From an uncultured Methanobrevibacter sp. (GTDB lineage: Archaea; Methanobacteriota; Methanobacteria; Methanobacteriales; Methanobacteriaceae): a DNA stretch of 64,000 nt. Location: positions 1 through 64,000 of the forward strand of contig NZ_CADAJR010000013.1 of NCBI RefSeq assembly GCF_902788255.1, given 5' to 3'. Each line of letters begins with the position of its first letter. The first letter of the stretch is position 1. Under the pieces are notes generated by a model, which saw only the letters and a program-made list of their open reading frames with translations, made no database searches and was not told the origin of the DNA. Of the stretch, positions 25,018 to 26,844 are shown in pieces. Made by a program: the position numbers and the translations under genes.

Positions 25018-25316
25018 AAGTTTTTCTTGTATATTATCTGTTGAAAAATCGGCTATTTTTTTAGTTTCAATTGTAAATACTTTTTATTTTTTATTTTACT
25101 TTATTTTAAATCTAAAAAAATTAATTTAATTATAAAATTGCTTTTGGTTTATAAAATTGATGTTATTTAAAACTTAATAATTTAAATAGGGCTAAAATTT
25201 AATATTATTTCACTCAATCACCATTTTTTGGAAAATTTTCAAAACTTTTTTTTTGCAATGATGGGTGATGAAGATATTGGCGAATTTTCTTCATCTTGAA
25301 ATTGAGGTGATGATTA
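25018..25316. other. AT-rich spacer with possible promoter and attenuator-like hairpin
   Basis: This stretch upstream of the micropeptide has no long frame. On the plus strand it holds a TATA-like AATAATTTAAATA near 25,175-25,188, a short palindrome TTGGAAAATTTTCAA near 25,228-25,242 followed by nine Ts (terminator-like), and an 8-bp stem GATGAAGA / TCTTCATC near 25,267-25,296 just before the GAGGTGAT ribosome-binding site. The arrangement could be a leader with an attenuator; this is inference. Confidence 0.35.
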
Positions 25317-25394
25317 ATGGACAAAATAAAAGTGATTTTAATAATCCTTGAGATTATCAAATTCATTTTGTCCGTTGTCTGTATCTTTAGATAG
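25317..25394 (+). CDS. Candidate hydrophobic micropeptide (25 aa)
   Basis: A short frame beginning MDKIKVILIILEI encodes 25 residues: a charged start, one stretch of about 19 mostly hydrophobic residues, and an arginine at the end. It is preceded by a good GAGGTGAT ribosome-binding site (25,303-25,310), 6 bases before the ATG. The size and layout resemble type I toxin peptides (Fst/Ldr-like) or other single-pass micropeptides, but no sequence family is recognised. It is isolated, and followed by a series of hairpins. A chance frame with a chance ribosome-binding site is the main alternative. Confidence 0.4.
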   Translation: MDKIKVILIILEIIKFILSVVCIFR

Positions 25395-25421
25395 ATTATC
25401 TATAGATTAAATTGTTGAATT

Positions 25422-25759
25422 AAAGAGGAGTTTTTGACGGTTATAAGGTTTTGCAGCTGGAAGTTTTCCTATAATTCCCCTTCTCTTTGTATATTGTTTT
25501 AAATGGTACACTTAATCATAAATTATAAATATGTTTAATGAAATACCTAAAAATAGCAAAGATTTAATCTTCGCTATAAACTGTTGAATGAAAAATCATT
25601 TCTCAGTTTCAAACCGTTATTGCAAATGGTCTAAAAAATTCGCATGGTTTATGGGCGGCAGTTCATAAACTATTTTTAGACTTACTATTTTTGACAAATC
25701 TTTTTTTATCTAATGATGCAAGAATACCATGACCTCTTCAAGGTCGTGGATGAATTGCA
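25422..25759. ncRNA. Hairpin-rich segment, candidate structured RNA
   Basis: Five inverted repeats lie one after another: 25,422-25,488 (AAAGAG / CTCTTT outer, TTATAAGG / CCTATAA inner), 25,553-25,577 (ATAGCAAAGA / TCTTCGCTAT, one mismatch), 25,578-25,609 (AAACTG / CAGTTT around ATGA / TCAT), 25,629-25,681 (GTCTAAAAA / TTTTTAGAC around GTTTATG / CATAAAC) and 25,717-25,759 (TGCAA / TTGCA around CCATGACCT / AGGTCGTGG). I see no long reading frame. The strand cannot be decided. The intron at 25,775 lies right beside the last hairpin. It may be an RNA gene or decayed DNA. Confidence 0.4.
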
Positions 25760-25815
25760 TTAAATGAGGGGGGAGTTAGATAGGATTGGATGATTACTCA
25801 TCCGCACCCTCTTGA

Positions 25816-25849
25816 GAACCGTACGTGTCTCTTTCAAGACATACGGCTC
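25816..25849 (-). ncRNA. Group II intron domain V
   Basis: This 34-nt hairpin is the catalytic core of the intron: it has the AGC triad, a GAAA tetraloop and the two-base bulge before the 3' arm. All conserved positions that I can check are intact, so the ribozyme may still be active if helped by a maturase in trans. Confidence 0.88.
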
Positions 25850-26007
25850 AAATAGACATTTATCTGAAAATCTTCGCTTTCAGCACGAAATATCCTAAAT
25901 CTTTGCTTATTTACATACTTATAAGTCTTCTTCCAGTCGGTATCAGACCATATAGTATCGTATGATGTTGTGGACTCTAAAACAGTACTGTTTTGAGCAT
26001 AACTCAT
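25834..26007 (-). pseudogene. Remnant of group II intron reverse transcriptase/maturase
   Basis: A 57-codon frame begins at an ATG preceded by GGTGAT inside intron domain IV. Its residues 20-45 (WSDTDWKKTYKYVNKQRF, RIFRAESE) look like the N-terminal RT-0 region of group II intron reverse transcriptases, with the W...V...RI..A pattern. The similarity ends at residue 45, and the frame runs straight into domain V. The fingers/palm with YADD, the maturase X domain and any endonuclease are all missing, so a deletion removed over 90% of a normal protein. The product cannot be a reverse transcriptase. Confidence 0.7.
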
Positions 26008-26706
26008 CTTTTATCACCATCCTTTTAACAAACAAACATTAATAGTTTTATTTACATGTTGTCTACTCTTTGAAAGTCAGCCATGTTTCCATGCCTGCCA
26101 CAGAGGGGCAGGTATCCGTTCACAGTTAATAATTTCCCTGTTTTCCTGCTATCTTTCGATTATAACGGCTTTTGCTTTCTTCAAAATCCTCTACCATCTG
26201 AAGAATTCCACTTCGTTCGCAGTCCGCTTACCTAGAATAGACATTTTTCTAGGACTTCAAATGGCTTACCGGGTTAATCTCCCATCAGATACGAATAAGG
26301 TAAGGTCCAAACTTTACACCGGCAATTCTGCGGGTTGTGCATTATAAGTATTAGTATAGTACTTATTTCCTAATTGCAATCGATAGTAGCACTCATTATA
26401 GTGCTTTGTATCCTACCTATCGGCATTTGTCACGATGCTTGCATTCGTTCACTTTAATTAACCATTCTTATTCTTCCTCTAGCCCTGATGACACTGGATA
26501 CTAGTGTTTCATTAGACATTTTGCTCATGCAACTTCCTAGACTCGTTACCAAGCCAGGAATTTCACAGGAGGAAATCCCAACACAACAGGGATTAAAACA
26601 ACTTCATGTAAGAAGTGTTTCACTGATACAAAGTAGGGAAAAAGGAGACCCTATCCCGTCGCACATACTTTTCAAATGCTCTCTCTTTAAATTTAAATAG
26701 TATTGT

Positions 26707-26844
26707 AATTAAATTATATTATAACAATCATAAATGGTTGTTAAACCGATGGTTCCGCGGGGAAATAAAACTCTAGGAATCCTCACCTTCTATAAGGTGA
26801 GGTTGTTCAATATAATCTTCTTAAATTATCATGATGGTGGTTAT
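26707..26844 (+). promoter_or_regulatory. Promoter and structured leader of marker 8 gene
   Basis: TTATATTATAA near 26,714-26,723 is a TATA box about 120 bases before the start codon, so the transcript should have a leader of roughly 100 bases. In it lie a GC-rich block near 26,750-26,765 (GGTTCC...GGAATC pairing) and a perfect 9-bp hairpin CCTCACCTT-CTAT-AAGGTGAGG at 26,781-26,802. No known riboswitch is recognised. Confidence 0.45.

Follow-up and report, generated by a model that had tools for sequence, protein, structure and literature searches.

The window, a 64,000-nt stretch of the genome of an uncultured Methanobrevibacter sp., carries between thiC and the downstream gene a group II intron that lies inside an IS200/IS605-derived MITE, antisense relative to the element's LE-to-RE direction. 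In relatives the interval between the two genes is short, with neither intron nor MITE. The approximately 650 bp of AT-rich intergenic DNA leading from thiC to the MITE (25040–25700) are absent in relatives too, and parts of this DNA resemble repeats of other genomes. The features of the locus, with the basis of each assignment in brackets, are:

25706–25759, plus strand: MITE left end, TTATCTAATGATGCAAG...hairpin 25727–25749...GAATTGCA (own-genome repeats, intron-less L068 and L069)
25775–26664, minus strand: ORF-deleted group II intron, 890 nt (Rfam match, continuous alignment to ORF-less relatives, empty sites)
25775–25811, minus strand: domain VI, 3' end AC (consensus fold, coordinates)
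25816–25849, minus strand: domain V, 34 nt, GAGCCGUAUGUCUUGAAAGAGACACGUACGGUUC (Rfam, consensus fold)
25834–26007, minus strand: RT/maturase remnant of 57 codons, its stop codon within domain V (frame, RT comparison)
25864–25877, minus strand: ORF-deletion junction, GCGAAG/ATTTTCAG (comparison with RT-bearing copies)
26346–26364, minus strand: EBS1 hairpin, loop 26351–26359 pairing with IBS1 AGTAT (sequence, permutation test)
26423–26429, minus strand: EBS2 CAAATGC (7-bp complement of IBS2 GCATTTG in the 5' exon)
26658–26664, minus strand: 5' consensus GUGCGAC, in DNA GTGCGAC (sequence; invariant in 13 of 13 aligned introns)
26665–26685, minus strand: homing target in the 5' exon, GAGAGAGCATTTGAAAAGTAT, a recurrent promoter-associated motif (motif counts, coordinates)
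26776–26810, plus strand: MITE right end, GGAATCCTCACC...GGTGAGGTTGTTCAA, with a hairpin adjoining TTCAA (same in intron-less L068 and L069)

The ribozyme and its exon-binding sites

Sequence comparison confirms that 25775–26664 on the minus strand is a real 890-nt group II intron of this gut methanogen. The Rfam model RF00029 (Intron_gpII) matches 25775–25851 of that strand over its full length (1–77), domain V included, scoring 54.7 bits where the gathering cut-off is 40 (E=1.1e-9 in a search of a 1.3-kb stretch); other low-scoring Rfam matches within the intron (sRNA162, CRISPR-DR17, ceN28 and others) are at chance level. The earlier note had read here a group II intron with an intact ribozyme, based on its 5' GTGCGAC (26664–26658), a 34-nt domain V with AGC triad and GAAA tetraloop, and a branch A in domain VI; Rfam match, structure and covariation all bear this out, and the intron ends agree to about 2 nt with the empty, intron-less elements of relatives. 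The termini, GUGCGAC...AAC, fit the 5' GUGYG and 3' AY rule for group II introns, and the candidate branch point is a bulged A at −7 (position 25781) that is unpaired in the consensus fold of domain VI. Joined, the exons AAAAGTAT and TCCCCCCTCATTTAATGC agree with the empty site AAAAGTATTCTCAATCCCATTTTATGC.

In an alignment of domains I–III of 13 introns, the window intron shows a single private deviation at otherwise invariant columns, with a G-U pair kept, while several RT-bearing copies deviate from these columns more often. The consensus fold of domains I–III comprises 136 pairs, 71 of them with two-sided changes (covariation), and that of domains V and VI 26 pairs, 16 with two-sided changes. 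The window ribozyme is intact, almost without decay.

The EBS1 loop, CTATACTAA, complements AGTAT, the five nucleotides with which the 5' exon ends, a pairing already recognised at first reading. Across 12 related introns EBS1 forms at least 6 bp with its own 5' exon in every case and matches it far better than it does the 5' exons of the other introns, giving a sum of 80 as compared to a mean of 35.7 and a maximum of 62 in 20,000 permutations; the 6 bp that the script counted for the window intron include the stem register, strict in-loop pairing being 5 bp. A compensating change relative to another Methanobrevibacter genome, G062 (EBS1 UUACUU and IBS1 AAGTAA in G062 versus EBS1 AUACU and IBS1 AGTAT in the window), is suggestive and not proof, since the ORF-less G062 copy C7 occupies an AGTAT site whose last base its EBS1 mismatches. 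As EBS1 and EBS2 are both in use, the intron is classed as IIB-like rather than IIC. A IIC subclass with terminator targeting was rejected: EBS2 is present, and the hairpin nearest to the insertion lies 3', on the wrong side.

Loss of the reverse transcriptase ORF

The window intron is an ORF-less derivative of an RT-bearing intron, with almost all of the enzyme gene lost. The protein frame, described earlier as 57 codons running into domain V, is indeed such a remnant: it shares 83% identity with the G062 RT over 48 aa, and it matches Pfam RVT_N residues 1–27 weakly, below the cut-off (E=2e-4). Compared with RT-bearing copies of 2,253 nt, some 1.36 kb are missing. The nature of the intron is settled by four G062 copies that are 92–93% identical to it, two with an intact RT and two ORF-less. 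The former (c1/c2), identical to each other and 93% identical to the window intron, each encode an intact 501-aa RT/maturase that scores over the NCBIfam group_II_RT_mat cut-off; in Pfam, this RT has RVT_N, RVT_1 and maturase domains and no HNH endonuclease. The latter, 895 and 903 nt long, sit at two other sites of the target motif, and positions 1–890 of the window intron align to them without interruption (93% for G062:C7, 92% for G062:C4).

Among 67 genomes, the window and the two ORF-less G062 copies are the only places with the deletion junction GAAAGYGAAKATTTTCAG, the same within 1 nt. That two species share such a junction, and that G062 has ORF-less copies nearly identical to each other at two sites of the motif, would fit an old trans-mobilised ORF-less lineage, common to both species, instead of two separate deletions; we give this reading slightly less than even odds. 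Outside the deletion, however, one substitution separates the ORF-less from the RT-bearing copies of G062, while the window intron is about 6% away from both. Since the G062 forms are far closer to each other than to the window intron, separate deletions at the same spot are favoured, absent gene conversion, and the same deletion may thus have arisen twice. The two near-identical ORF-less copies at two G062 sites do argue for movement in trans.

The window's own genome (2.2 Mb in 69 contigs) holds six domain V matches: the window intron and those on C26, C39, C21, C45 and C18. The C45 and C18 introns sit at contig ends, and C35 has a further intron 3' end at its edge. The earlier note had proposed a search for full-length relatives. 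The RT on C26 is intact and distant (47% identity), the RT on C39 is broken, and that on C21 is a fragment (58%) cut by the contig end; this assembly contains no intact close cognate RT, the nearest ones being 47–64% identical. It is rather unlikely that the window intron is a recent fossil, that is, a dead insertion that lost its ORF and now neither splices nor moves. The lack of an intact close RT in the assembly fits such a fate, as does the decay of neighbouring copies (the broken frame of C39, the truncated inner copy of C21, and G036b, which has lost part of D1). Against it, a single private change at invariant columns leaves the window ribozyme no worse than RT-bearing copies, the EBS1 of the window intron matches its target, and the same ORF-less form is found at two other sites in G062.

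Several further arrangements were seen among the relatives. On C21 (43385–45276; L015, 2649 and 1624), one intron lies within the domain V hairpin loop of another, forming a twintron whose internally deleted inner copy has a 7-bp EBS1 match to the domain V loop site. Introns nested in the RT ORFs of other introns, for instance after the YADD motif codons, are present at L071, L072, L076 and L077. At position 1906 of L071, an intron directly follows an IS605-type right end (TTCAA), and its EBS1 UUGAAC matches GTTCAA. The L007 intron (C26:36576–40238) has an intact RT, a 5' end that is scrambled or missing (no GTGCGAC), and a duplication of TATTCGAC at its 3' end. A search of genome and viral contigs with the pattern GAGCATTTGN{3,10}GTGCGAC proved too loose; among the matches listed, no group II intron was recognised beyond Methanobrevibacter.

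The host element and the promoter motif

The left end of the MITE, on the plus strand also written TTATCTAATGATGCAAGAATACC-hairpin-GGATGAATTGCA (25706–25759), precedes, on C28, C40 and C20 of the own genome, a gene that by eye resembles an IS200 transposase, and introns of G004 lie just upstream of tnpB, that is, of genes with OrfB_IS605 and Cas12f1-like TNB domains (L073, L074); on these grounds we take the host element to be an IS200/IS605-type MITE. Intron-less versions of the same MITE, about 260 bp long, are found in G034 and G005 (L068, L069), and a related intron-less MITE lies on C31 of the own genome. The first reading was right about the intron and the loss of its ORF, and had missed EBS2, the MITE, the antisense orientation and the promoter motif as homing site.

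This target motif, GAGAGCATTTGnnAAGTA (forms also written TAnTTnnCAAATGCTCTC and TACTTTTCAAATGCTCTC), recurs at promoters. With at most one mismatch, GAGCATTTGRNAAGTA occurs 18 times in the own genome, as compared to 0 for the reversed control, and GAGCATTTGNNAANTA is present in 64 of 66 Methanobrevibacter genomes, mostly in several copies, and hardly ever beyond the family. In the own genome (G000 loci L128–L145) the motif closely precedes the TATA region of opposite-strand genes. These genes encode MCM, Hjc, Hef, RPA, Mre11, Topo VI-B, a YoaA/XPD-like helicase, a DECH helicase with a divergent UvrD/PcrA-like gene, a helix-hairpin-helix MutS-like protein and, less certainly, a XerA-like recombinase and DUF763. 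In the complete genome G008 (L311–L326), the motif precedes the genes for RPA, Hef, Topo VI-B, RFC small subunit, two YoaA-like helicases, NrdD and a cytosine methylase, as well as HhH-MutS-like, XerA-like and DUF763-like proteins that were recognised only by resemblance to those of the own genome. Since in both genomes it also precedes genes without an evident link to replication or repair, a replication/repair regulon is to be regarded as hypothetical. The tnpB genes of IS605 elements (L073 4578–5831, L074 795–1937) carry the repair-gene promoter motif as well, and their expression may therefore be tied to the same regulator.

We read 14 intron insertions at the motif, which fall into three subfamilies by their 5' end. 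The GTGCGACGGG subfamily is inserted after AAAAGTA[A/T], the GTGCGACAAGC subfamily after AAAAGTA[A/T]T[C/T] (once ACTAATA), and the GTGCGACGAGATAGAA subfamily a few bases behind GCATTTG. For the subfamily of the window intron, pairing of EBS2 and EBS1 accounts for the site specificity. For all four G062 copies and several others, no MITE was recognised around the motif at which they sit, and where G062 has insertions at the hef and helicase promoters, the orthologous promoters in the own genome and in G008 are empty. We tentatively propose, at a little under one chance in two, that three subfamilies have converged on a family-wide replication/repair promoter motif, probably the operator of an undescribed regulon, and that an ORF-less lineage spreads among such operators with the help of a maturase in trans.

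Six copies in the own genome (C13, C39, C45, C21, C35 and C18) end beside a MITE left end at different loci, as they would if MITE and intron transposed as one unit, a group II counterpart of the IStron, and spread mainly in this way. We consider this improbable, given that two subfamilies occupy sites 2 nt from each other in one type of MITE (AAAAGTAT^ versus AAAAGTATTC^), that the MITE around C18 is another version, of which an empty example exists on C31, and that in G062 the same introns are at the motif without any MITE. An IStron or composite transposon as the main route was rejected on account of the motif introns without IS and the two subfamilies 2 nt apart. IStrons combine a group I intron with IS605/IS607, and a survey found none in Archaea (PMC4227781). 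While the window locus shares with them a catalytic intron together with IS200/IS605 ends, its ribozyme is group II, internal and antisense to the element rather than group I at an IS605/IS607 end, and such introns also occur without IS.

Proposed history and known systems

The best explanation of the locus, with a probability of about 0.85, is a retrohomed IIB-like intron in a MITE that lost its ORF by internal deletion and is now non-autonomous and still foldable; the intron, its structure, the deletion, the target and the empty sites are read directly from the DNA. The intron would have entered the IS200/IS605-derived MITE by retrohoming, with EBS2 and EBS1 recognising the motif and insertion taking place at its outer edge, in an orientation that would leave the promoter-side motif and the TATA box untouched. 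An endonuclease-independent route seems plausible, because the RT of the close relative lacks HNH in Pfam. The internal deletion, later than entry into the MITE or before it, would have removed the RT/maturase ORF and kept the ribozyme. The remaining intron should fold; we infer that, if expressed, it would need a maturase/RT in trans to splice and perhaps to move, and dependence on such help is plausible. As the intron sits in an untranslated element, selection for splicing could be weak.

Bacterial group IIC introns insert behind terminators or attC sites, and here too a recurrent intergenic motif serves as a harmless landing site, although EBS2 is present and, together with EBS1, pairs with a linear promoter-side motif rather than a stem-loop. 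In Thermosynechococcus, ORF-less copies are thought to borrow the RT of a sister copy. ORF-less group II introns of that organism are described in PMC2882425; by comparison, the cognate RT of the window intron is in G062 and not confirmed in the window genome, and our case is one of sequence comparison.

As a rule, ORF-less introns occur alongside related RT copies (PMC4424553), and Methanosarcina has both ORF-less and nested group II introns (Dai and Zimmerly 2003, as described in PMC4424553). The earlier note had called ORF-deleted forms rarer still in archaea; the kind itself is not new, and the window intron adds to these examples. Both sets are archaeal, with ORF-less beside RT-bearing introns and site-specific homing into related introns (here L071, L072, L076 and C21, among others); they differ in that Methanosarcina belongs to another archaeal order and in that a main target here is the promoter motif plus IS605 MITEs, not only intron ORFs. 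The literature searched yielded no relevant report of group II introns in Methanobrevibacter and none of a repair-regulon motif in Methanobacteriales or of introns targeting it; as far as found there, a shared promoter motif as intron homing site is new.

Of the 296 genomes covered by a 2022 survey, 28 contained archaeal group II introns, with a concentration in Halobacterota (PMC8919778). While the earlier note had called such introns rare in archaea, this does not hold in the genus, where 23 of 67 Methanobrevibacter genomes have RF00029 matches: group II introns are common in Methanobrevibacter, outside the archaeal groups in which the survey found its concentration. G062, with RT-bearing and ORF-less copies one substitution apart outside the deletion, provides a natural system for testing whether archaeal introns move in trans. 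Finally, the landing sites of these introns hint at a possible shared regulator of replication and repair genes (MCM, RPA, RFC, Hef, Hjc, Mre11 and Topo VI-B).
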